Source: Roseobacter fucihabitans | GTDB taxonomy: Bacteria > Pseudomonadota > Alphaproteobacteria > Rhodobacterales > Rhodobacteraceae | Length of the DNA stretch: 64,000 nt | NCBI RefSeq assembly: GCF_014337925.2 | Contig: NZ_CP143423.1 | Span: forward strand, 526,501 to 590,500 | Reading direction: 5' to 3' | Shown: in pieces, positions 3,775 through 43,329 of the stretch | How positions within the stretch are numbered: position 1 is the first letter of the stretch | How the letters are laid out: each line of letters begins with the position of its first letter | The notes under the pieces: model-generated | The model's database searches: none | What the model saw: the letters and a program-made list of their open reading frames with translations, nothing else | What the model was told of the DNA's origin: nothing | Made by a program: the position numbers and the translations under genes

Positions 3775-5573
3775 GAAAGCGGCTCGATTACTGGTATGAA
3801 TTCAAAGCTGCGCACGTCGACCAATCCAAGGTCGGAAATGCGCAACTCGGGGATGACCACGAGGGCCAGAAGAGAATGTTGCATATAGGCGTTGTTCAGC
3901 GTGCAGCCGCAATCGCGCATGGCCTGCATCATCTGGTCTGCCTTAGCGGCGACCTCAGTTGCGAGACGGTCTGACATGAGGCCCGCGATGGGCAGTTCCA
4001 CGAGCGCCAGTTCAACGCCGTCCCTGAAGATCACGATACCGCCGCCGACCTCGTTGAGGCGATTGGCGGCCATCGCCATATGCGCGCCGTCGGTGCCGAC
4101 CACGATCATATGGTGGCTGTCATGCGCGACTGTGGAGGCCATCGCCATGGGGCCGTCATACCCAAAGCCCGACACGAAGGCATTGGTCACCGACCCGGTG
4201 GCGCGGTGGCGTTCGACCAGCGCGATTTGGCAGACTTCGCCTGTGGCCTGCACGCGGCCCTCTGTGACGGGGAGTTCGAATTGCAGCGCCTTGGTGGGTG
4301 CCTGATTTTCCACCACACCAATGACATTGGCGCGAACGGCATTTGCCCCCTTGGGCGCGGGGATGGTGAAATCCTCCGCCGCCAGCGTTTTGCCCATGTT
4401 GACAGTCTGGCGCGCGGTATCGGGCCAATTGTAATGTGGGCAATCCACGAGGCAGACGCCGTTTTCGGCCACGATCTGTCCGCGCGCGATCACGGTTTCA
4501 ATCGGCAGGGTGGTGAGGTCAGAGGTCAGGATCACATCCGCGCACCGCCCCGGCGTGAGCGAGCCAATCTCGCGTTCCAGTCCGAAATGTGTGGCGGTGT
4601 TAATCGTGGCCATTTGCAGGGCAATCAGCGGATCACAGCCACAGTTGATGGCATGGCGCACAACCCGGTTCATATGCCCGTCATTGACCAGCGTGCCGGA
4701 GTGGCAATCATCCGTGCACAGAATCATATTGCGCGGATCAAGGCCCTTTTCGGTGATCGCGGTGATCTGGGTTTCGACGTCATACCAAGCGGACCCGAGC
4801 CGGATCATTGACCGCATGCCCTGGCGCATCCGCGCAATGGCATCGGCCTCGCAGGTGCCTTCGTGATCATCCGCGGGACCGCCCGCCACATAGCCCGCGA
4901 AGGCAGGCCCAAGATCGGGCGAGGCATAATGCCCGCCGACGGTTTTGCCCGCGTGTTGCGTGGCGGCGATTTCGGCGAGCATCTTGGGATCGGCGTTTGA
5001 CACACCGGGGAAGTTCATCATCTCGCCCAGACCGATGATACCCGGCCAAGACATCGCCTCCGCGACATCCTCGGGAGATATTTCAAAACCCGTGGTTTCC
5101 ATACCCGGTGCGGAGGGCGCACAGGACGGCATCTGGGTGAAGATATTGACCGGCTGCATAAGGGCTTCGTCATGCATCATGCGCACGCCCGCCAGACCCA
5201 GAACATTGGCGATCTCATGGGGATCGGTAAACATAGAGGTCGTGCCATGCGGGATCACGGCGCGGGCGAATTCCGCCGGGGTCAGCATGCCGGATTCGAT
5301 GTGCATATGCCCATCACACAGGCCGGGGATCATATGGCGCCCATTGGCCTGGATGATCTGCGTGTCCGGGCCAATACAATGTGCGGCATCCGGCACCACA
5401 CAGGCGATGCGGCCTGCGATAATTGCGATATCGTGGTTGTCCAGAATTTCGCGGGTATGGACATTGACCCATTTACCGCCCTGTATAACGGTATCAGCGG
5501 GCGCGCGGCCTGTGGCAACGGCAATAAGTTGTGGTGCAGAGTCGGGCCATGTTGGAATAGAAGCTGTCGTCAT
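3771..5573 (-). CDS. ade: Adenine deaminase
   Basis: This enzyme deaminates adenine to hypoxanthine and ammonia. The 600-residue protein is an amidohydrolase-superfamily adenine deaminase of normal length. Metal-site motifs are seen: PGLCDGHMHIESGM in the N-terminal half and LCTDDCHSG near residue 290, followed by the TINTATHFGL region. The ATG at 5573 is preferred; an upstream ATG at 5588 would add five residues. It is the first gene of a two-gene operon with amn. Together they convert AMP to hypoxanthine and ribose 5-phosphate without passing through IMP. Confidence 0.93.
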   Translation of the reverse strand: MTTASIPTWPDSAPQLIAVATGRAPADTVIQGGKWVNVHTREILDNHDIAIIAGRIACVVPDAAHCIGPDTQIIQANGRHMIPGLCDGHMHIESGMLTPAEFARAVIPHGTTSMFTDPHEIANVLGLAGVRMMHDEALMQPVNIFTQMPSCAPSAPGMETTGFEISPEDVAEAMSWPGIIGLGEMMNFPGVSNADPKMLAEIAATQHAGKTVGGHYASPDLGPAFAGYVAGGPADDHEGTCEADAIARMRQGMRSMIRLGSAWYDVETQITAITEKGLDPRNMILCTDDCHSGTLVNDGHMNRVVRHAINCGCDPLIALQMATINTATHFGLEREIGSLTPGRCADVILTSDLTTLPIETVIARGQIVAENGVCLVDCPHYNWPDTARQTVNMGKTLAAEDFTIPAPKGANAVRANVIGVVENQAPTKALQFELPVTEGRVQATGEVCQIALVERHRATGSVTNAFVSGFGYDGPMAMASTVAHDSHHMIVVGTDGAHMAMAANRLNEVGGGIVIFRDGVELALVELPIAGLMSDRLATEVAAKADQMMQAMRDCGCTLNNAYMQHSLLALVVIPELRISDLGLVDVRSFEFIPVIEPLS

Positions 5574-33877: not shown

Positions 33878-34552
33878 TCAAATCTGATGTAAATCCGCCA
33901 TGACCTGTAAAGCGTCCCGGTCGATGACCCGGACCCCACCGCGCGTCGCTTCGATAACCCCTGCACGTTTCCAAAGCGCCAGTGTTTTCGATACAGCCTC
34001 TCGGGTTGCGCCCACGAACTCGGCAAGTTCTGCCTGAGACAATGTCAACGTGGATAGTTGCTTTGATCCATCTATCGTCAAATACAGAATTTTTCGGGCC
34101 AACCGCGCGGGCATTGGTAAAAACACCTGTTCGTTTAACTGGCTGCTCATCCAACGCATGCGTTCACCGGCCAATTGGATCATGTCGATTCCCACATCCG
34201 GTGCGGCGCGAATGGCGCGTAACATATCCGCGTTCCTGACTCCTCGAAGCCGCGTGGGTTCCAAAGCGGTCACCGTTGCGGTTCGGGTTCCAGGATCAAA
34301 AAGAGCGATTTCACCAAAAAGAGCGCCAGGACGCATAACATCCAGTGAAAGTTTGCGCCCCTCACGTGAAAGCACGCTGAATTCAAGTGAGCCAGTGATG
34401 ATAGCATAAAGGGTATCCCCATCCTCGCCTTGTTCAAAGAGGGTCTCCCCAGAAGTGAGTTTGACCTCGGTTGCCACGGATGCCATGAGGTCGGACAGTT
34501 CTTTTGAGGCATGCGCCAAAAAACCGGTTTTGGGCAGTGTTACGGTGTCCAT
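33878..34552 (-). CDS. Crp/Fnr-family regulator
   Basis: This protein of about 224 residues has an N-terminal cyclic-nucleotide-binding fold (GETLFEQGEDGDTLYAIITG, PGALFGEIALFDPGTRTATV at about residues 38-95). The C-terminal HTH reads LAEFVGATREAVSKTLALWK near 168-187. The PGALFGEIALFDPGTRTATV pocket is close to cAMP-binding CRP sites. No Fnr-type cysteine cluster is seen at the N-terminus. Start codons at 34552, 34555 or the GTG at 34558 are all possible. Confidence 0.88.
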   Translation of the reverse strand: MDTVTLPKTGFLAHASKELSDLMASVATEVKLTSGETLFEQGEDGDTLYAIITGSLEFSVLSREGRKLSLDVMRPGALFGEIALFDPGTRTATVTALEPTRLRGVRNADMLRAIRAAPDVGIDMIQLAGERMRWMSSQLNEQVFLPMPARLARKILYLTIDGSKQLSTLTLSQAELAEFVGATREAVSKTLALWKRAGVIEATRGGVRVIDRDALQVMADLHQI

Positions 34553-34883
34553 CATCACTTCTTTCTGTTCTGACCCTATGTCGCATCAATGGCCTGCACC
34601 GTCGCTGCGATTTTGGGGGCAAGCTTGCTCGTCATAGCACAGGTGCCAAGCTGGCGTGTCCCGTCACAGAAAGCAACGACGCGTTAACGTTTTTTTCTAT
34701 CAATGACCTGAGCCCAGAAACATCCCTCACTTTGACATAGAGTTTCCGCATTTTTGCTGTGCCAGCCCAGGTATCCCCGGTCGGGATTAGGGTTTCCGCA
34801 CTTTGACCGCACAGGCAGACGGGATGCGTCTGGTGATTTCATCAGTGCTGTCGGGACGGCGCGTTCTTCGTTGGAGTCTCAAC
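34553..34883. other. Intergenic stretch upstream of the Crp/Fnr gene, with insertion-sequence debris
   Basis: It holds the upstream region of the regulator and two near-direct copies of a GTTTCCGCA motif (34744 and 34792). The second motif marks the edge of sequence that seems to belong to an IS remnant. No gene is visible. Confidence 0.4.
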
Positions 34884-34920
34884 CATTGCCCGGCAGTCGC
34901 TGCCTGTAGCGATGAAAGGG
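34884..34920 (+). repeat. Hairpin element, copy E (37 nt)
   Basis: It begins CATTGCCCGGCAG and ends GATGAAAGGG. Between these lies a stem TCGCT with AGCGA. It is the most divergent of the six copies. The flanking base before it is C, equal to its first base. It lies at the broken end of an IS3-type OrfA remnant on the other strand. Confidence 0.7.
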
Positions 34921-35115
34921 ACCGAGCCTCCAACTTTTCGGCAGTATTTTCAGGCCCATGAAGCAATGAGCGCTCAGACATCCAGCGGGACCAAAAAGCT
35001 CTCGCTTCAGAACAACCGGGCACATTTCCTTAACCAGTTCCAAGTCCGCAATGATCTTCTCCAGCCGCGATCTCTCATCTTCCAACTCACGCAACCGCTT
35101 CATGTCTGTTGGCAA
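34921..35115 (-). pseudogene. Remnant of an IS3-family OrfA
   Basis: The start of the fragment reads MKRLRELEDERSRLEKIIAD, the leucine-zipper-like end of an IS3-family OrfA, followed by ELVKEMCPVVLKREL. After about 65 residues the frame runs into hairpin element copy E. The upstream HTH part of OrfA is missing, so it cannot be functional. Confidence 0.6.
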
Positions 35116-35291
35116 CGTGCCTGCGTACCTCTCAGAGCGTTAAAATGGAGCGTTTCCCTGTACAAACCCCGCTCAGATGGCGTTTTTTCGCTGGCGCATT
35201 CCTGGGTGATCCGCCCACCCCTTGATGTGCTGCTGCGAGGTGATCTGAAGCAGGCTATTTTGCCGTTCTTTTTTGAACGGGAGATGGCCGA

Positions 35292-36376
35292 GTGAAGAGA
35301 TTGCCAATGCGGAAGATACGAGAGGCGTTGCGCCTGTCACATGGAGGTTTGTCGACGCGGGTGATTGCATCGAGCTTGGGCGTCGGGCGCACGACCCTGC
35401 GCGAGTATTTGAGTCGCGCGCGAGACGTGGGTTTGAGCTGGCCGTTGTCGAGTGAGCTCACTGACGCCGAGCTGGAACAGTTGTTGTTTCCACCGCGTCC
35501 AGTGGGCAGTTCTGACCTGATCCCATTGCCGGGTTGGGCTTACGTGCACGCGGAGTTGCGACGTAAGGGCGTGACGCTTTTACTGCTGTGGGAAGAGTAC
35601 CGAGAAGTTCGCCCCGAGGGCTACGGTTACAGCCGATATTGTGAGCTCTACACCCGATGGGAGGGCAAACTGTCGCCAGTGATGCGGCAGCGTCATCCAG
35701 CGGGCGAGCGATTGTTCGTGGATTATGCAGGCCACACCGTTGATGTCGTTGACCCGCAGACAGGTGAAGTGCGGACGGCTCAGATCTTTGTCGCGACCTT
35801 TGGTGCCAACCGCCGTGCTTTGTTCGAGACGTTGGACAAACCCGCGCTGAAACCGCTGCCTCGTGAGCCATATGTTTACGCCGAATGGAAGAAGTGCCGC
35901 GCCGGTCTTGATTACCACGTCGATATCGAGCGGCATTATTGCTCGGTGCCCCATCAGCTCCTGCGCCAAGAGCTCTGGGCATGCATCACAGCCCGCATCG
36001 TCGAGATTTATCATAAAGGTCAGCGTGTTGCAGCGCATCAGCGGATATCAGGCAACTGCAAACATTCCACGATCCGCGACCACATGCCTGCCAATCATCG
36101 GTATCAGACCGACTGGACGCCGGAACGCATCCGCACACAGGCCGCGCGTATCGGACCCAATGTTGAGACTTTTGTGGAGATGGTCATGCGCAAGCGCCGT
36201 CATCCCGAACAAGGCTACAGGACATGTATGGGCGTTCTACGACTGGCCAAAACATTTGGGGCTGCCCGCCTTGATGCAGCCCGCGATCACACATCCCGAC
36301 ATCCGTCACACCACAGGTGTGCCACTCCATGATTATAGCCCGCCTTTGGCGGGACGGGCAGGTTACTTTCATTGAA
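35292..36376 (+). pseudogene. istA: IS21 transposase IstA with internal deletions
   Basis: The N-terminal HTH (STRVIASSLGVGRTTLREYL) and the first part of the DDE core (ERLFVDYAGHTVDVVDPQTG) are present. The frame then jumps from IFVATFGA directly to NRRALFETLDKPALKPLP. The usual 130 or so residues that carry the second Asp and the Glu are missing, with the frame kept. A second deletion after AKTFGAARLDAA changes the frame and removes about 40 residues; the true C-terminal coding sequence continues to about 36376 in another frame. IstA is normally near 500 residues. The catalytic triad is lost, so it cannot transpose. Confidence 0.85.
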
Positions 36377-36387
36377 GAGGAAAATTT

Positions 36388-37189
36388 ATGCTTGATCACC
36401 CAACACTCGACCAACTCAAAACGCTCAGGCTCGACGGTATGGCGGAAGCCTTTGCCGAGATGCTAACACAGGACAGCAGTGCCGACCTGACCCACGCCGA
36501 CCTTACGGCAGATTTGCTATGCAAATCGCCTATCGGGTAATAAATGGCTGGGCTTGCTGATCGACCGCGAAGCCACCAGCCGCGAGACCAAACGATTTGA
36601 AAGCCGGATGCGCACCGCGCATCTGCGCCATGTCGGGGCTGCCCCCGAAGACGTGGATTACAAGACCCGGCGGGGCCTCGATAAATCGCTGTTTCAAAAT
36701 TTGCTGACTGGCAAGTGGATCAGGGACAAGCGTAACTTGATGATCACTGGCCCTTGCGGCGTTGGCAAAACCTGGCTGGCCTGCGCACTTGCACAAGCAG
36801 CCTGTCGCGAGGGTGTCACCGTGCTCTACAAACGCACGACTCGCCTGTTCGATGAGTTGGAACTGGCCCATGGTGACGGTCGGTTCCCGCGCATCTTTAA
36901 GGCGCTGACGAAGACCCAGCTGCTGATCCTTGATGGCTGGGGGCCAGACCGACTGGACGCCAACCAGCGGCGTGATCTCATGGAGATTGTCGAGGACAGA
37001 TACGGAAATGGATCAACACTGATCACCAGCCAGTTGCCGCTTTCAACCTGGCACGAGGTTATCGGCGAACCTACCTTCGCAGACGCTATCCTCGACCGGC
37101 TCGTACACAATGCCTATCGCCTCGAACTCGACGGGCAATCCTTCCGAAAGCAAGATGCTCAAGCAGGTGACGCCACAACCAAAAACTGA
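36388..37189 (+). pseudogene. istB: IS21 helper ATPase IstB, interrupted by hairpin element F
   Basis: IstB is the AAA+ partner of IstA. The N-terminus MLDHPTLDQLKTLRLDGMAE is intact to SADLTHA. A 43-nt hairpin element (36500-36542) then breaks the frame. The protein resumes as WLGLLIDREATSRETKRFES with Walker A MITGPCGVGKTWLA and runs to the normal C-terminus. Removing exactly 43 nt gives 759 nt, or 252 codons plus stop, with HAEWLG across the joint, which is the expected IstB sequence and length. Confidence 0.9.
36500..36542 (-). repeat. Hairpin element, copy F (43 nt)
   Basis: On the reverse strand it begins TATTACCCGATAGG. It then has the stem GATTTGC with GCAAATC around ATA and ends GCCGTAAGGT. 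It is two bases longer than the 41-nt copies because the stem has one more base pair. The base before it on that strand is T, equal to its first base. It splits istB. Confidence 0.85.
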
Positions 37190-37270
37190 TACCTAAAACC
37201 AAATGCCTCAAGGCAACGCGTCAAAGCTGGGCGGATACGTCGGAATACGTAGGGGACGCCCAATCAGGGA

Positions 37271-38527
37271 TCAGTACGCCAATAAAGCGTTCTTTGTGTG
37301 AGCATTGATGTCGGTCAGAATAATATCACCTTCTTGTCGGGGTCGATCAAAGTGCACTTCGCAGAATTGCTCTGTTCGACCCATTATCGGGCTTTCCATT
37401 AAAACGCGGTGGCTGCGTCCAATTTGTCGCTCAAGATGGCGCAAAACCTGGCCCGCTCCTGCTTCTCTCAATTGCCGCGCACGGTCCTTGATATTTCTAC
37501 CATCAACAGGGGGCATTCGCGCAGCAGGCGTGCCGGGGCGCGCGGAATAGGGGAACACATGCAACCAGGTCAGGTCACATTCTGCCACCAGATCCAGCGA
37601 GTTCCGGAACATCGCATCGGTTTCGGTCGGAAAACCCGCAATGATATCCGCCCCAAACGTCATTTCGGGGCGCAACTTGCGGGCGTGCTGGGCAAATGAA
37701 ATGGCATCGTCCCGCAGATGGCGGCGTTTCATCCGCTTGAGGATCATGTCATCGCCATGCTGAAGGGAAAGATGAAGATGCGGCATCAAACGGGGCTCCG
37801 TGGCGATCGCCAGCATCAGGTTATCGTCAACCTCGATACTGTCGATGGAACTGATGCGCAGCCTCGCCAGATCCGGGACCAACTTTAGGATACGCATGAC
37901 CAGATCACCCAGTTTCGGCGTGGCGGGCAGATCGGCCCCCCAGCTTGTGAGATCCACCCCCGTCAGCACGACCTCGTTATAGCCCTTGTCCACAAGCCGC
38001 TTGATCTGATCCACGACAACGCCTGCGGGGACCGAGCGTGAATTTCCACGCCCAAAGGGGATGATGCAAAACGTGCATCGGTGATCACACCCATTCTGGA
38101 CCTGCACATAGGCGCGGCTACGGGTTCCAAAACCATCGATCAGGTGACCCGCCGTTTCGGTCACGGACATGATGTCATCGACCTGCACAGTTTCCGTTTC
38201 ACCGATGAAATCCGCAGCGAGCCCTTGCCAGACGCTGCCCTGCATCTTTTCAACATTGCCGATCACGGCATCAACTTCGCTCATACCGGCAAAGGTTTCA
38301 GGTTCAGTCTGCGCGGCACAGCCCGTCACGATCAAACGCGCATCGGGATGTGCCCGGCGCAGTTTCCGGATGTCTTGTCGGGCTTTGCGCACCGCCTCGC
38401 GCGTGACCGCACAGGTATTGACGATCACGGCGTTTTCGAGTCCGGCCTGCTCTGCCAACTCTTTCATGGCTTCGGTTTCATAGGCGTTCAACCGACACCC
38501 CATGGTGGAAAAGATGGGCGCGCTCAT
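37271..38527 (-). CDS. mtaB: tRNA t6A37 methylthiotransferase MtaB
   Basis: This 418-residue radical-SAM enzyme converts t6A to ms2t6A at position 37 of ANN-decoding tRNAs. An N-terminal UPF0004 domain begins STMGCRLNAYETEAMKELAE. The radical-SAM cluster lies in NGCDHRCTFCIIPFGRGNSR near residues 148-167. A TRAM-like tail follows. The ATG at 38527 overlaps the dapF stop by four bases, so it is coupled to dapF; longer starts would run into dapF. The IS21 remnant begins just past its stop. Confidence 0.93.
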   Translation of the reverse strand: MSAPIFSTMGCRLNAYETEAMKELAEQAGLENAVIVNTCAVTREAVRKARQDIRKLRRAHPDARLIVTGCAAQTEPETFAGMSEVDAVIGNVEKMQGSVWQGLAADFIGETETVQVDDIMSVTETAGHLIDGFGTRSRAYVQVQNGCDHRCTFCIIPFGRGNSRSVPAGVVVDQIKRLVDKGYNEVVLTGVDLTSWGADLPATPKLGDLVMRILKLVPDLARLRISSIDSIEVDDNLMLAIATEPRLMPHLHLSLQHGDDMILKRMKRRHLRDDAISFAQHARKLRPEMTFGADIIAGFPTETDAMFRNSLDLVAECDLTWLHVFPYSARPGTPAARMPPVDGRNIKDRARQLREAGAGQVLRHLERQIGRSHRVLMESPIMGRTEQFCEVHFDRPRQEGDIILTDINAHTKNALLAY

Positions 38528-39357
38528 GCCAGCGCCGCCAAATATGCCGCGCTCAGCGTACCGTCGAAAACATGCGTCGTAGGACCGGTCATCCACACCC
38601 CGTCCTCGCGCCAATCCACATGCAATGTACCGCCGTCCAGATCAACCCTCACGGCGCGTCCTGTCAGGCCCCGGCGTGCGGCCGCAACGGCCGTGGCGCA
38701 GCTTGACGATCCGGATGCCAAGGTCGTTCCTACACCGCGCTCCCACACACGCATACGGATATGATCCTGGCCGATGATCTGCGCGATTTGCACGTTTGTG
38801 CGCTCAGGGTAGAACGGGTGATTTTCATGCCGCGCACCAAATATTTCCAGATCGATGGCCATCACGTCATCCATGAAGAAGGTGCAATGCGGATTGCCCA
38901 TACCGGTTGCGACCGGGCGACCTTCCATCGGGAGATCGGTTGTATCCATGTCCTGACTGAGAGGGATGTCGCGCCAATCCAGTTGAGGATGACCCATGTT
39001 GACTGCCGTCAAACCCTCGCCCGCGTCTCGGGCCTCCAGAACACCACGTTCGGTAGACAGGGACAATGCGCTTTGACCGGTTTCCTGCATGATCTGGCGC
39101 GCAATACAGCGTGTCGCATTCCCGCAAGTCCCTGACAGCGAACCATCCGCATTATAGAACGTCAGATGCGGCATGTCCGACCCTTGCGTGATGAGCGCGA
39201 GTTGATCAAAGCCGACCCCGCGGTGTCGGTCCCCCAGCGCCTGCGCGAGTGCCGGGGTGACAGTGATTTCGCGCACCCGTGCATCCAGAACAACGAAGTC
39301 ATTGCCCAGCCCATGCATCTTGGAAAAAGTTAAGTTATCGGTCGATTTACCATTCAT
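38524..39357 (-). CDS. dapF: Diaminopimelate epimerase
   Basis: This 277-residue enzyme interconverts LL- and meso-diaminopimelate for lysine and peptidoglycan. It shows KMHGLGNDFVVLDAR at the start and the first catalytic cysteine in DGSLSGTCGNATRCIA. The second catalytic position, normally ACGxGAC, reads TLASGSSSCATAVAA here, with Ser in place of the catalytic Cys. The ATG at 39357 gives a standard length. It is translationally coupled to mtaB, an order common in the Rhodobacterales. The rest of the protein looks intact. Confidence 0.9.
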   Translation of the reverse strand: MNGKSTDNLTFSKMHGLGNDFVVLDARVREITVTPALAQALGDRHRGVGFDQLALITQGSDMPHLTFYNADGSLSGTCGNATRCIARQIMQETGQSALSLSTERGVLEARDAGEGLTAVNMGHPQLDWRDIPLSQDMDTTDLPMEGRPVATGMGNPHCTFFMDDVMAIDLEIFGARHENHPFYPERTNVQIAQIIGQDHIRMRVWERGVGTTLASGSSSCATAVAAARRGLTGRAVRVDLDGGTLHVDWREDGVWMTGPTTHVFDGTLSAAYLAALA

Positions 39358-39463
39358 TTTGGCGATATAAGCCCATGCGGCAAAACTATCCAGTGGGTCC
39401 AGGCAAAAAGGGCCAATAGGGGCTTGACCCTGCTGCGCCACCTTTCTAAGTAACGCGCTTAGT

Positions 39464-39539
39464 GGGCCTGTAGCTCAGTTGGTAGAGCAACTGACTTTTA
39501 ATCAGTAGGTCTCCGGTTCGAACCCGGACGGGCTCACCA
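39464..39539 (+). tRNA. tRNA-Lys (UUU)
   Basis: The acceptor GGGCCTG pairs with CGGGCTC, and a CCA end is encoded. The anticodon arm is CTGAC TTTTAAT CAG with anticodon TTT, and the T arm is CCGGTTCGAACCCGG. It marks the left border of the accessory block that runs to about 53.6 kb. Confidence 0.97.
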
Positions 39540-39726
39540 CTTTCTTTTCATGTGACTAATAACGATAGTTGACCACTTTTCGTAGGATTCTGGTCACTTT
39601 TGTCGTAAAACTCGGTCACTCGCAGCTAAGACAGGTAATTCACCCTATATCGGTAAGTGATCCAGGTAGACCTGCAAAGTTTAGTTGACCCAAATTTGAA
39701 CACCACACAATGAAGTCGATCCCTAA
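39540..39726. repeat. Repeat cluster resembling a transposon left end
   Basis: Directly after tRNA-Lys come three related motifs about 20 bases apart: TTGACCACTTTTCG near 39570, TGGTCACTTTTGTCG near 39591 and TCGGTCACTCG near 39611. Similar GGTCA motifs reappear at 41331-41392 in the other orientation, past the TniQ-like gene. Regularly spaced end repeats are typical of Tn7/Tn5053-like elements. Confidence 0.45.
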
Positions 39727-39831
39727 TTTACAGTTGGTGGATCCTACTGCTACACAAGATGCAGACAAAGCGAGGAAATCGCGCATAGTCTCGCGGATCG
39801 TTACGGACTGGCGAGGACGACAGCTCGCAAA

Positions 39832-40647
39832 ATGATGCGAGCAATAGGTGGCGGTACCCATGCAGACGGGCGTTTGATCATGAAAGCCGGAACTATCATT
39901 CCTCAAATGGAGCGGTTTTCAAGTTCGCTGCCCCCATCGGAAGCAGCTATCAAGTTAGGCATTCCTGCAGAAATGCTGATGCAGCTGGTCAAAGCGAGAC
40001 TTACTGCGATCTGCCCACACATAACTGGAACGATCATGCGTTTCGACCCACAGGCGATTGTTTGCTTCAAGCAGCAGCTCTTTCGTGACAGTGAGGGAAC
40101 TGACTGTTTGAATGATGAATGGGTGTCTTTGAAGCGCGCAGGCCAAGTTTTTGGCTATAGTCTTGATCACGTGTGCGCGCTGATACTCGACGGCGAACTC
40201 AACCAACTTAGACACCGCCCAAATGCATTATCACTCTACGATCTACATCTAAATAAAAAGGAAGTCCTTGGGCGGATGTCAGATGCAGCGGCTATTGGGT
40301 GCTCAAAGGCTGATCTTAAGCAGATTCTTGGAATAAATGACCCGACCGTCGCCCAAATTGTCCGTAAGGGTATGATCGCGAGTTTTGGAGTAAAAAACCC
40401 CTTGAACCATAGAAAAATGATCCGTTTCACTTCAGAAGCTATCGATAGTTTTTTGCGAGAGTACCTGCCTCTGGGTCTTTTTGCCCGCAATGCCGGGATG
40501 CAACCGCGAGCTGCGATGCTGTACATCGAAAAACTGGAGTTGCATGCTCTGGATTGGCCACGAAAATTTAGCAGAGTATACCGACGTACTGGCTTACCTT
40601 CTGAGATTGCAAAAATGCAGATAGAATGGAGCCTCCCAACAGGCTAA
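39832..40647 (+). CDS. TniQ-like protein with repeated HTH segments, probably 5'-truncated
   Basis: This 271-residue protein contains several short HTH-like repeats, such as PSEAAIKLGIPAEMLMQLVK, DAAAIGCSKADLKQILGIND and LPLGLFARNAGMQPRAAMLY. This resembles the C-terminal part of TniQ/TnsD target-selection proteins. The reading frame is open upstream to 39727 and continues the same style (SLADRYGLARTTARK). The ATG used may therefore be internal and the N-terminal zinc-finger part of TniQ lost. No TniA/TniB genes are near. It sits beside tRNA-Lys between sets of GGTCA repeats. The call is tentative. Confidence 0.45.
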   Translation: MMRAIGGGTHADGRLIMKAGTIIPQMERFSSSLPPSEAAIKLGIPAEMLMQLVKARLTAICPHITGTIMRFDPQAIVCFKQQLFRDSEGTDCLNDEWVSLKRAGQVFGYSLDHVCALILDGELNQLRHRPNALSLYDLHLNKKEVLGRMSDAAAIGCSKADLKQILGINDPTVAQIVRKGMIASFGVKNPLNHRKMIRFTSEAIDSFLREYLPLGLFARNAGMQPRAAMLYIEKLELHALDWPRKFSRVYRRTGLPSEIAKMQIEWSLPTG

Positions 40648-40682
40648 ACCTATGCCTCCAAACAATTTTCATGGAGGTGTAA

Positions 40683-41153
40683 ATGAAACCCGATCCAATA
40701 GTAAAGTATCTCTTGGCCTGTGTCGCTGCGCTGAGCGCTGGCGTGGCCTTTGCTTTCAAGTTCCTTTTGGAGGCGCGCGACTACCCTGAACTCTCCCTCG
40801 TCATGCTTGCAGTTGTTGCCTTCGTGATTGGTACGATATGTCTGTTCGCGGCCTTGGCCGTTTGTGGCGTTCTCGGTTCTGCTTTTGCTGAAGCATTGAA
40901 AACGAAGCAAAACGGCACTGGCGATGCTGTCGAGGATGAAATCAATACCGCCACTGAAATTGAAACCGAAACGTTCACAAAAAAGGTGCCTAGTTTACCT
41001 ACCAAGATTATCCTCATCATCACAGGTTTCTTCGGGCTCTGCGCAGCGTTCGTTCTCTTGCTTATTGGTTTCGCCGCATTTCATTTCGCGACAGATCATC
41101 TAGGAAGTTCTCTGGGCATCTTTCGAGATCACCTTGAATCACAAATCAATTAA
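40683..41153 (+). CDS. Small membrane protein of unknown function
   Basis: This 156-residue protein has three or four membrane segments: YLLACVAALSAGVAFAFKFL, LSLVMLAVVAFVIGTICLFA and, after an acidic linker (about residues 78-98), IILIITGFFGLCAAFVLLL. GGAGG lies just before the ATG. It follows the TniQ-like gene by 35 bases and may share its transcript. I do not recognise the family. Confidence 0.65.
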   Translation: MKPDPIVKYLLACVAALSAGVAFAFKFLLEARDYPELSLVMLAVVAFVIGTICLFAALAVCGVLGSAFAEALKTKQNGTGDAVEDEINTATEIETETFTKKVPSLPTKIILIITGFFGLCAAFVLLLIGFAAFHFATDHLGSSLGIFRDHLESQIN

Positions 41154-41329
41154 GCACTGGGCTTAGCGCAGGTCACAGACGTGGCCTGCGCGTCAGATTG
41201 TGCTTTTATGTGTCGAAAGTTGCTGGGGAGTTGTCGTTTGAATTTCCCATACTTCATAAAATTACCGACTTAAGGTCTCAGAAATTACTCGAAGCGCTGT
41301 CTTTTAACACAGTGTGACGACTCGTGATG

Positions 41330-41392
41330 TTTGACCATTTGGGTCATGTTTTTGGTCATTCTAGGCACTAACTTTGGTCATTTGGTCATTTT
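41330..41392. repeat. GGTCA repeat cluster, possible transposon right end
   Basis: Within 63 bases there is one TTGACCA and four GGTCAT motifs (41342, 41354, 41376, 41384). The last is followed by TTTTCGAG, like the TTTTCG of the left cluster. Together with 39570-39620 it may bound a small degenerate element carrying the TniQ-like gene. The flanking 41154-41533 has no gene. Confidence 0.4.
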
Positions 41393-41533
41393 CGAGATTA
41401 AGTCACTGTCAGTAGACCATAAGAGTGCAGATTTGGAGCATAAGCTTGCTGATCTGCCTGTTTGGTCAACTTTCCACACCAATTTGATACTGAAATCGAG
41501 ATGACTCGTCGCTTTGGGCAAGCGGAGACAATC

Positions 41534-41608
41534 TCGGTGGATAGTTGAGTTGGTAAGGTAACGGTTCTTGGCACAGTGTACCGTAGGTTCGAATCCTACC
41601 ACCCAACC
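41534..41608 (+). pseudogene. tRNA-Gln (UUG) relic
   Basis: The D-arm AGTTGGTAAGG, the anticodon loop TCTTGGC with TTG, the variable GTACC and the T-arm GTAGGTTCGAATCCTAC line up with alphaproteobacterial tRNA-Gln. The acceptor stem is broken: GGTGG pairs only partly with CCACC and no CCA end is encoded. The anticodon stem has one mismatch. It may be a decayed tRNA carried by, or used as a target by, a mobile element; the IS3 remnant starts just after it. Confidence 0.6.
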
Positions 41609-41658
41609 GTCCTGCCAGCCGAAGACGGCGGTCTGACTTGGTCACGCTTGCGCACATC

Positions 41659-41694
41659 CATTGCCCGGCAGTGTATTGAAAATACATGAGAGGG
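41659..41694 (+). repeat. Hairpin element, copy A (36 nt)
   Basis: It starts CATTGCCCGGCAG, has a stem TGTATT with AATACA around GAA, and ends GAGAGGG. The stem sequence is unlike the other copies but is fully paired. Removing it joins LVTLAHI to KERSRLSPGSYGRP in the IS3 OrfB frame. Confidence 0.88.
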
Positions 41695-41852
41695 AAGGAG
41701 CGGTCCCGTCTCAGCCCGGGCAGCTATGGTCGACCGCGCATGACTGAAGAGCTGAAGGAGATCGGTCTGAATGTTGGCCATCGTCGTGTTGGTCGTCTGA
41801 TGCGTCAGAACGGAATAACCGTGGTCAGGACCCGTAAACACAAGGTCACAAC

Positions 41853-41893
41853 CATTGCCCGGCAGGCGATTGCACAGCAATCTGCTGAGAGGG
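41853..41893 (+). repeat. Hairpin element, copy B (41 nt)
   Basis: It starts CATTGCCCGGCAGGC, has a stem GATTGC with GCAATC around ACA, and ends CTGAGAGGG. Removing it rejoins KVTT and DSDHKFN in OrfB. The inserted length, 41, would otherwise shift the frame and cause an early stop. Confidence 0.92.
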
Positions 41894-42149
41894 GGACAGC
41901 GACCATAAGTTCAACATAGCGCCGAACCTGCTGGATCGGGACTTCACCGCAGATGCGCCAAATCAGAAGTGGGCTGGTGACATCAGCTACGTTTGGACCC
42001 GAGAGGGTTGGTTGTACCTGGCTGTCATCCTCGACCTGCATTCAAGGCGCGTCGTTGGTTGGGCCGTCAGTAATCGCATGAAGCGCGATCTGGCAATTAG
42101 GGCGCTGAAGATGGCGATTGCATTCCGGTTACCGCCGAAAGACTGCATT

Positions 42150-42190
42150 TATTACCCGACAGGCGATTACAAGGTAATCTGCCGAGAGGG
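42150..42190 (+). repeat. Hairpin element, copy C (41 nt)
   Basis: It starts TATTACCCGACAGGC, has a stem GATTAC with GTAATC around AAG, and ends CCGAGAGGG. Against copy B, the stem has a paired G-C to A-T change. Removing it restores [11 protein letters not shown]. The base before it is T, equal to its first base. Confidence 0.92.
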
Positions 42191-42304
42191 CACCACACGG
42201 ATCGCGGCAGCCAATATTGTTCTCATGATTATCAGAAGGTCCTGCGCCAGCATGGCTTCAAGGTATCGATGAGCGGCAAAGGAAATTGCTATGATAATGC
42301 CGCC

Positions 42305-42345
42305 CCCTCTCGGCAGATTGCTTTGCAATCGCCTGCCGGGCAATG
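42305..42345 (-). repeat. Hairpin element, copy D (41 nt)
   Basis: It lies on the reverse strand: starts CATTGCCCGGCAGGC, stem GATTGC with GCAATC around AAA, ends CCGAGAGGG. Removing it gives CYDNAAV in OrfB, but a deletion of about 50 codons begins two or three bases beyond the element. Confidence 0.9.
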
Positions 42346-42418
42346 GTACGCTTTTGAACGGAAAGTGGCTTAAACGAGCACCTGGGGCGGCACAAAAGCG
42401 CGACAGGTCCACTTGTTC

Positions 42419-42856
42419 TCATTGGCGACCCTCCGGGAACGCAGCGTGTCTGGAGACCTTCTCCAGACCAGATGCCCACGCGGGTTGCTCTGAGGCAAAT
42501 ATTCTTATCCGTTCGACCACATTAACCGGATCGCTCAGAGATCCAGCCGGAACGATCATCTTCGTCCCATCACCATTTGGCCAAGGAACTCCCGACCCGC
42601 AGACCCGACAGAACGACTTGGAGATATCCCGCCCCGGGACTTGGTAGCTGACGATCTCTCCCGTGCCCGCCAGCCAGTCGAACCCTTCGATGCTCACGAA
42701 CAGATTGGAAGCAAAAGCAGATCCGGTGATTTGGCGGCACTGTTCACAGCTGCACAGAAGCAGTTTTTCAAACGTGTTGATAACCGCGAACGAGACGACA
42801 CCACACAGGCAGCGGCCTTTGTTTTTATGGAACGAGTGGTTGTCTAAAGAGGTCAT
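42419..42856 (-). CDS. GFA (Mss4-fold, glutathione-dependent formaldehyde-activating-like) protein
   Basis: This 145-residue protein has the GFA zinc-site pattern GRCLCGVVSFAV, LLCSCEQCRQITGSAFASNL and the third cluster FCRVCGSGVPW. A bound zinc is expected from the cysteines. Family members are often called formaldehyde-activating enzymes, though that activity is doubtful for most. The ATG at 42856 is chosen because the domain begins soon after it. It is the last gene of a reverse-strand group with the glyoxalase-like and later genes, close to the IS3 remnant. Confidence 0.83.
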   Translation of the reverse strand: MTSLDNHSFHKNKGRCLCGVVSFAVINTFEKLLLCSCEQCRQITGSAFASNLFVSIEGFDWLAGTGEIVSYQVPGRDISKSFCRVCGSGVPWPNGDGTKMIVPAGSLSDPVNVVERIRIFASEQPAWASGLEKVSRHAAFPEGRQ

Positions 42857-42900
42857 CTGATGGGCCTTTCGAAGTGCATCGCATCGCCTAATTCTGCGCG

Positions 42901-43329
42901 CTACTTGATTGCCTCGATCAACTCGATGCTGTATCCATCGGGATCGTTCAGAAACGCGATGACTTCTTTTTGGCCAGTCTCGGTGGGCATAAGTTTCATT
43001 GGCCCTGCTGGCCTTGTCAACTCCACACCCATTTTTTCTAGACGCGTACAAGCCGCGTAAATGTCCGCGACCTCAAGTGCGATATGACCGTAACCGGTAC
43101 CTTGTTCGTAACCAGTTTCGTCCCAGTTCCAAGTCAATTCAATCGTCGACGCTGTTGGGCTATCTCCGTATCCCATGAAAACCAAAGTGAAGCGACCTTC
43201 AGGGAATGTCTCGCGCCGTGTTTCGTGCATGCCCAATGCGTCTGCGTAAAAGGCGATGGAGCGTTCAAGATCGCCCACGCGGAGCATCGTATACAGAATG
43301 CGGCTGGGAAGGTTGGTTAGATCAGTCAT
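42901..43329 (-). CDS. gloA: Lactoylglutathione lyase (glyoxalase I)-like protein
   Basis: This 142-residue protein closely follows the GloA pattern: RILYTMLRVGDLERSIAFYA, FMGYGDSPTASTIELTWNW, GYGHIALEVADIY and NDPDGYSIELIE. Glyoxalase I isomerises the methylglyoxal-glutathione adduct and uses a His-Glu-His-Glu metal site. Here the first His (normally LHTMLRV) is Tyr, while the other three ligands are kept. A single C-to-T change explains it. Activity may be reduced or altered. It is part of the small detoxification-like cluster. Confidence 0.85.
   Translation of the reverse strand: MTDLTNLPSRILYTMLRVGDLERSIAFYADALGMHETRRETFPEGRFTLVFMGYGDSPTASTIELTWNWDETGYEQGTGYGHIALEVADIYAACTRLEKMGVELTRPAGPMKLMPTETGQKEVIAFLNDPDGYSIELIEAIK

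Follow-up and report, generated by a model that had tools for sequence, protein, structure and literature searches.

What is the short hairpin that recurs inside the transposase genes of Roseobacter fucihabitans, and how does it come to be there? The window analyzed here, a stretch of 64,000 nucleotides (G000:C1:526501-590500 of NZ_CP143423.1), holds six copies, which an earlier note had located in transposase genes or their remnants. All six segments were confirmed at their original coordinates and strands, and covariance models run over the whole genome recovered all six in the window and no others, with unchanged boundaries. The hosts are also those first named: IS21 istB for the copy at 36500, IS3 orfB for those at 41659, 41853, 42150 and 42305, and an IS3 orfA-like match 103 bp from the copy at 34884. 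These segments are a real mobile insert, inserted with single-base precision and in either orientation. We explain it best, with a probability of roughly 0.55, as a non-autonomous single-strand "peel and paste" element of IS200/IS605-like character, moved in trans and carried by insertion sequences (ISs).

Removal of the element rejoins the interrupted frames in IS21 istB, IS3 orfB, IS200 tnpA and others. Moreover, of the 235 distinct sites compared, drawn from this genome and others, 103 have a homologue that lacks the element and runs through the joint without a gap, at identities of up to 94.6%; since these empty homologues align without a gap there is no target duplication, and the target-site duplication of a miniature inverted-repeat transposable element (MITE) of a DDE transposon was not seen at them. 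The remaining 132 sites showed a gap at the joint; in many of the rows seen, the match was the filled site of the query itself. An IS3 query composed from two near-identical copies, with four elements removed, matched 19 intact copies of this genome without gaps over 226 amino acids (71% identity). Thus the possibility raised earlier, that the segments are normal parts of intact IS3 or IS21 genes, is ruled out by the element-free homologues and the 19 intact IS3 relatives. The length is not a multiple of three in 188 of 220 copies, and over 65 sites of the own genome the orientation relative to the host open reading frame (ORF) is the same in 30 and opposite in 35.

The census of the genome (4.85 Mb) was made with two covariance models, R1, based on 21 bulged-T copies, and R2, based on 16 copies that lack the bulge. 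At E<=0.01 they gave at least 145 and at least 124 matches, respectively, which merged into at least 220 hairpin copies in 75 clusters; these counts are lower bounds because the best 150 candidates per model were scored. Grouping by flanks revealed 86 distinct insertion sites behind the copies, likewise a lower bound. The element measures 36-45 nt, with a single truncated copy of 32 nt at G000:C1:3822110-3822141, apparently cut short by a later rearrangement within its 3' block and omitted from the sequence logo, which was therefore built from 85 sites. The pattern ATTRCCCGRYAG with at most one mismatch occurs 386 times in the genome (214+172) versus 123 (53+70) for the reversed control pattern; it is exact at no fewer than 48 places among the matches listed, with further exact ones on the reverse strand. 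A stricter pattern script, which retrieves 177 of the 220 model copies, gave at score <=1 no match in 1.39 Mb of shuffled sequence versus 16 in 400 kb of evenly spaced genome sequence; three of the six matches of score 2-3 in this 400 kb control lie away from transposases and look like chance. An Rfam cmscan of window positions 34000-43000 (E<=1) returned a tRNA and four sub-threshold matches, none of which matches the element span as a family. Literature searches gave no title on this hairpin family, which is weak evidence of absence given their limited coverage of subscription journals.

The logo shows a YNYTRCCCGRCA block followed by a GAGAGGG block, and reads Y-N-Y-T-R-CCC-GRCA, variable stem and loop, GAGAGGG. 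The fold consists of an upper stem, often with one bulged T, a small loop, an internal loop GGCA/GAGA and a lower stem CCC/GGG. Fold statistics were computed on 125 distinct rows from the best 150 of 183 matches in 92 chosen loci. Paired cells made up 97.8%, both-side changes occurred at 11 of 13 pairs and the covariation score was 0.400, as compared with 0.110 for shuffled and at most 0.034 for slid alignments, the figures for the upper stem, to which the alignment had been fitted, leaning towards structure. Neither the lower stem nor the pair between bases 1 and 5 belonged to the fitted model; pairing reaches 96.7% in the former and 100% in the latter (CG 113, UA 11, UG 1). The element is therefore conserved as a folded strand, backed by compensatory changes. 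Since the lower stem comes after base 5, and its last G is followed by base 1 where the ends meet, the pair 1-5 would be the next step of that stem, so that both exchange points would lie at one nick; if the ends were joined, the covariation points to a closed dumbbell with a three-base loop.

For analysis of the target, 284 own and external sites were merged to 237, an own site standing for any external site homologous to it; own groups 7, 36, 38 and 39 merged with others, leaving 82 own sites. External sites with a score above 1 were excluded, and at least two of the rows kept (L232, L279) look like chance by eye. One short-flank site was omitted from target consensus and covariation (236 sites) and two from the empty-site comparison given above. 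Only a weak target consensus emerges, C A T C | G, with the bar at the insertion point. Base +1 covaries with element bases 1 and 5: among the 82 own sites, those with C at +1 have A5 in 9 and G5 in 3, and those with other +1 bases A5 in 2 and G5 in 68. Complementarity between base 5 and +1 is avoided in this set (3 versus 10.8 expected; none of 3000 GC-stratified shuffles as low). Between base 2 and -2, on the contrary, complementarity is raised, with 136 versus 107.7 expected over the 236 sites (GC-stratified; none of 3000 shuffles as high) and 49 versus 41.9 in the own genome alone (p 0.012). From the fold and these covariations we infer a single-strand exchange.

Homologous positions in related genes, with flanks 0.67-0.81 identical, can carry elements that differ clearly (core identity <0.85), which suggests that one target is used repeatedly. 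One such position, with a flank identity of 0.79, has A at +1 and CACTG in L205 and C at +1 and TGTTA in L222; the subtype changes with the +1 base, as the rule predicts. A simpler rule, by which the element would start with a copy of the base to the left of its site, held by eye for all six copies of the window but gave no signal over 85 sites and was discarded.

Regarding the hosts, tblastn against transposases of the same genome placed 59 of the 86 own sites inside a transposase ORF and 6 within 54 bp of one; of the 21 left, 14 have a transposase match 69-419 bp away and 7 have none. Pfam identified IS66 TnpB, a Mutator-type transposase, an integrase N-terminal domain and an IS5-type DDE domain at four of these seven (groups 28, 40, 59 and 85, respectively), group 84 overlaps the fragment of group 85, and groups 52 and 73 are, by eye, remnants of IS66 and IS256. 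The group 73 site also borders a fragment resembling a solute-binding protein. Host families confirmed by Pfam are IS3 (HTH_21, rve), IS21 (IstB_IS21, rve, Mu-transpos_C_2), IS66, IS110, IS200 (Y1_Tnp) and the IS1182/IS5 type (DUF772, DDE_Tnp_1); IS630 is a label given by eye to a fragment without a Pfam match. In the 400 kb sample about 2.2% of bases are transposase-like, a reference-based lower bound, and all 16 matches of score <=1 lie within 300 bp of such sequence, clustered in 4 of 20 stretches; by the same reference the window copy at 34884 is not within 300 bp of a transposase-like match.

An even spread with no tie to transposases is thus excluded for the own genome. The earlier statement that no copy lies in a core gene or ordinary intergenic region holds for the assignable sites of this genome, but not for all other genomes (see below). 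Of the two explanations then offered, preference for transposases or survival only in dispensable DNA, the tie itself is real and both stand as to its cause; survival alone would leave unexplained why other dispensable DNA of the 400 kb sample showed no good match.

Covariance model R1 found the element, at E<=1e-4 with stricter filters, in 37 of 146 genomes including the own one; within one bacterial family, the Rhodobacteraceae, it occurs widely though patchily. A pattern scan gave at least 119 stretches in genome contigs, mostly Rhodobacteraceae by title, and 52 in viral contigs; among the 80 of those 119 or more that were given to the covariance models, some from other groups fail them. 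Among plasmid records the bulged consensus occurs in 74 and the plain one in 12, most of them from roseobacter-group genera, Pseudosulfitobacter accounting for 43 of the 74; the PLSDB features under the listed plasmid matches are mostly "none", in a feature table that omits pseudogenes.

Of 118 external sites (score <=1), 75 lie inside a transposase or no more than 60 bp away from one, 13 are 61-600 bp distant, and 30 have no match, some of these being transposases as well: of IS6 type by Pfam (L129) and of IS630, IS91, IS3, IS5 and IS256 types by eye. Homologous ISs of different genomes share element sites. There are also hosts of other kinds. One is a phage C5 cytosine methylase gene in a viral contig (Pfam on the L271 fragment), and L250:8880 and L278:1527, which by eye lie in the same methylase gene, share one site (flank identity 0.81) with different stems; the L278 fragment gave no Pfam match. 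L271 holds two element copies in the methylase region, at 4549 and 5556. A RelE-like gene has the element inside it or at its start in L167:1346-1386 (an Amylibacter metagenome-assembled genome; Pfam) and L264:1472-1512 (a viral contig), and copies stand 3' of SDR-like genes, by eye, in L148 and L169. The transposase bias is therefore strong, although not exclusive across genomes, and preferential insertion and hitch-hiking on ISs are both possible sources of it.

Table 1. Hairpin element copies and their hosts in the window (positions counted from its first nucleotide).
Feature	Position	Strand	Remarks
Element copy 1	34884..34920	+	37 nt, no bulge
IS3 orfA-like remnant beside copy 1	35018..35140	-	Limits approximate, by eye; tblastn match 103 bp from site
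IS21 istB, interrupted by copy 2	36388..37189	+	Pfam IstB_IS21 on element-removed ORF; removal rejoins DLTHA|EWLGLL
Element copy 2	36500..36542	-	43 nt, bulged T, antisense to istB, T1/A5 subtype, target +1 = C
IS3 orfB copy carrying copies 3-6	41602..42373	+	5'-truncated, ~150 bp internal deletion
Element copy 3	41659..41694	+	36 nt, no bulge
Element copy 4	41853..41893	+	41 nt; removal rejoins VTT|DSDHKF
Element copy 5	42150..42190	+	41 nt, T1/A5 subtype, target +1 = C; removal rejoins frame
Element copy 6	42305..42345	-	41 nt, antisense; at deletion joint between NCYDN(AA) and (Y)AFERK

The IS3 copy of the window illustrates how the element is carried. Its elements are common to seven other copies in the genome, and Pfam recognized HTH_21 and rve on a near-identical, element-removed copy. 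Site 10 is common to 8 copies, identical at 100% over ~400 bp, and other laden ISs are 98-100% or 68-95% alike; laden ISs carry up to five elements yet have multiplied. The window IS3 lacks ~150 bp after NCYDN, where its intact relatives continue for ~50 codons. We take this missing region to hold the DDE glutamate, so that the laden IS3 should make no working transposase and would have been multiplied in trans. The element at 42305 sits on the deletion joint, and recombination between two elements would explain the deletion. No element lies inside the IS ORF in the 12 loci read of the 19 intact IS3 copies (motif-placed in 10 of the 12), thus there is no sign of insertion after that IS spread.

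Three further observations concern carriers. Single elements at G000:C1:2224311, 3777926 and 968089, and at window position 42305, have left and right flanks from different sites (by eye), as if they were recombinants that deleted or fused the intervening DNA. Three IS200-type genes for Y1 transposase, at G000:C1:436966, 3626453 and 3701035, are broken by the element at one common position and have 100% identical DNA in common, with an IS110-like ORF (IS110 by eye) next to it. Finally, a degenerate tRNA-like sequence at window positions 41535-41605 (Rfam tRNA, 23.2 bits, gathering score 29) abuts the truncated 5' end of the laden IS3.

If the element is indeed of the peel-and-paste kind, a trans-acting single-strand nuclease or transposase would recognize the fold; a strand swap at the nick would then join the flanks and close the element as a small dumbbell circle. 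This circle would be pasted into a CATC|G-like target, chosen in part by element base 2 against target base -2, and the avoided pairing of base 5 with +1 would stop an inserted copy from re-forming the active joint. Passive spread would follow, laden ISs being multiplied in trans by intact relatives. With its hairpin mostly inside genes that move other jumping DNA, the element looks like a parasite of parasites. A bolder version, which we regard as speculative and rather unlikely, is that of a self-contained single-hairpin element whose ends and target are read by base pairing in the nicked dumbbell and which is adapted to transposase genes of any family, that is, a sequence-programmable hyperparasite of ISs whose enzyme would belong to a class that has yet to be linked to elements of this sort.

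Several results weigh against the peel-and-paste reading. The avoidance between base 5 and +1 is not significant in the external set alone (3 versus 4.1 expected, p 0.13) and so rests on the own genome, because the pattern that recruited external sites largely fixed T4 and G5. Pairing of base 3 with -3 is not significant over the 236 sites, L220 and L342 (TGTCA, +1 = G) and L326 (TCTCA, +1 = T) are exceptions to the +1 rule, and the covariation shuffles ignore the descent that relates sites and subtypes. Among 235 sites no filled/empty pair of at least 95% identity was seen, hence no recent move is shown. No partner enzyme was found; the one-contig genome G016, with 24 element matches, has no Y1 match. 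Moreover, IS608 has a hairpin at each end, whereas the element is a single hairpin.

The strongest competing account, a serious contender that we place somewhat below an even chance, is pure survivorship and hitch-hiking: elements would land anywhere at a low rate and be lost elsewhere, while those in ISs would be multiplied and passed between genomes, with no choice of target. It concerns the bias only and can hold together with the peel-and-paste explanation. The excess of copies over sites (at least 220 from 86), the many multicopy laden ISs, the sites shared by homologous ISs of different genomes and the weak consensus all agree with it, as do the element-free ORFs of the intact, recently multiplied IS3 copies that were read and the elements outside ISs in other records. 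On the other hand, with transposase-like sequence making up ~2.2% (lower bound) of the 400 kb sample, all 16 matches, clustered as they are, still fall within 300 bp of it, and homologous sites can carry different elements.

That the hairpin is a repetitive extragenic palindromic (REP)-type element mobilized by a REP-associated tyrosine transposase (RAYT), or else a miniature form derived from a resident IS200/IS605, is an unlikely alternative, although one with evident attractions: the small size, the bulged hairpin, the conserved unpaired 5' block, the absence of target duplication and the 10 Y1 matches of the own genome, open IS200-type genes among them. Y1 transposase (PF01797) was found in 9 of 37 element-positive versus 2 of 52 element-negative genomes of the family (G000-G088; Fisher p 0.007), and Y2/IS91 in 10 of 26 versus 3 of 27 (G000-G052; Fisher p 0.028); both associations may follow IS load only. 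There is no Y1 match in 28 of the 37 element-positive genomes, and an obligatory Y1 or Y2/IS91 partner is not supported. By eye, the Y1 genes that were read resemble those of IS200, and the element itself interrupts three of the copies. No RAYT was seen among 8 Y1 loci read, where the only elements seen lie inside the gene (L044-L046), a result that speaks of present-day partners only. Derivation from the resident IS200 was rejected, the ends of the copies read (L041-L047) being unlike the element by eye. The tag families GTAG and CGTC of REPs are described in PMC3733652, and neither tag is present beside the palindrome in the logo of 85 own sites.

Other accounts fare worse. Integron attC sites are folded substrates of a tyrosine recombinase, with a lower stem, an unpaired spacer, an upper stem with an extrahelical base and a GTT/AAC core; the overall fold of the element is similar, but this core is not seen in the conserved blocks of the logo, and we consider such a recombinase substrate improbable. 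Even more doubtful is a host defence that disarms transposase and other mobile-element genes by placing the hairpin in them: hosts do span many unrelated transposase families and include the phage DNA methylase gene (L271, with the same site in L250 and L278), yet laden ISs kept multiplying and intact ISs are untouched in the loci read. Removal from RNA like an intron, or bypass in translation, was rejected as scarcely credible, for although ISs with up to five elements multiplied and frames are rejoined on removal, the orientation is mixed, most lengths are not multiples of three, and the multiplied IS3, lacking ~150 bp, was moved in trans with intact relatives in the same genome.

The element is a very small DNA unit whose precise and repeated insertion can be demonstrated from sequence alone, and the covariation between element and target amounts to a testable recognition code of a few bases. 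It reveals mobile DNA in layers, with ISs as carriers and graveyards for something smaller, and suggests that many roseobacter "pseudogene" transposases have been interrupted by the element and multiplied in trans.

How does it compare with known systems? Its way of working resembles that of IS200/IS605 and REP elements, but the tag, the single hairpin and the missing partner speak against membership in either. The byp elements and GC clusters of yeast mitochondria are short mobile hairpins inside genes as well; the element differs from them in showing no sign of translational bypass, in its mixed orientation and in having dead transposases among its hosts. The small dispersed repeats of cyanobacteria, which Elhai is said to have described in 2008, are reportedly very small, precisely inserted and nested in other repeats, a likeness in size, precision and nesting. 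Hairpins of the IS608 type carry an extrahelical base. REPs are palindromes of 20-40 nt in high copy number, some with a bulge in the stem, and have a conserved unpaired tag (PMC3733652; PMC8266576); they are cut by TnpA-REP (PMC8266576). Whereas REPs are mainly extragenic, the element sits in IS genes, and it inserts as single units.

A close parallel is with IS200/IS605. According to PMC5934647, IS608 has guide bases 5' of its hairpin that pair with the sites of cleavage, inserts exactly, 3' of a short left-flank motif and without target duplication, and shows a preference at +1. The element likewise shows no duplication at the 103 of 235 sites, appears to insert 3' of a short left-flank motif and covaries with +1. 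It differs in being 36-45 nt in all, with no gene, and in having, instead of a fixed short target, the weak consensus CATC|G. As for guide pairing, the changes in CCC/GGG, the pairing of base 2 with -2 and the avoidance of +1 by base 5 are analogous to that of IS608, in another geometry.

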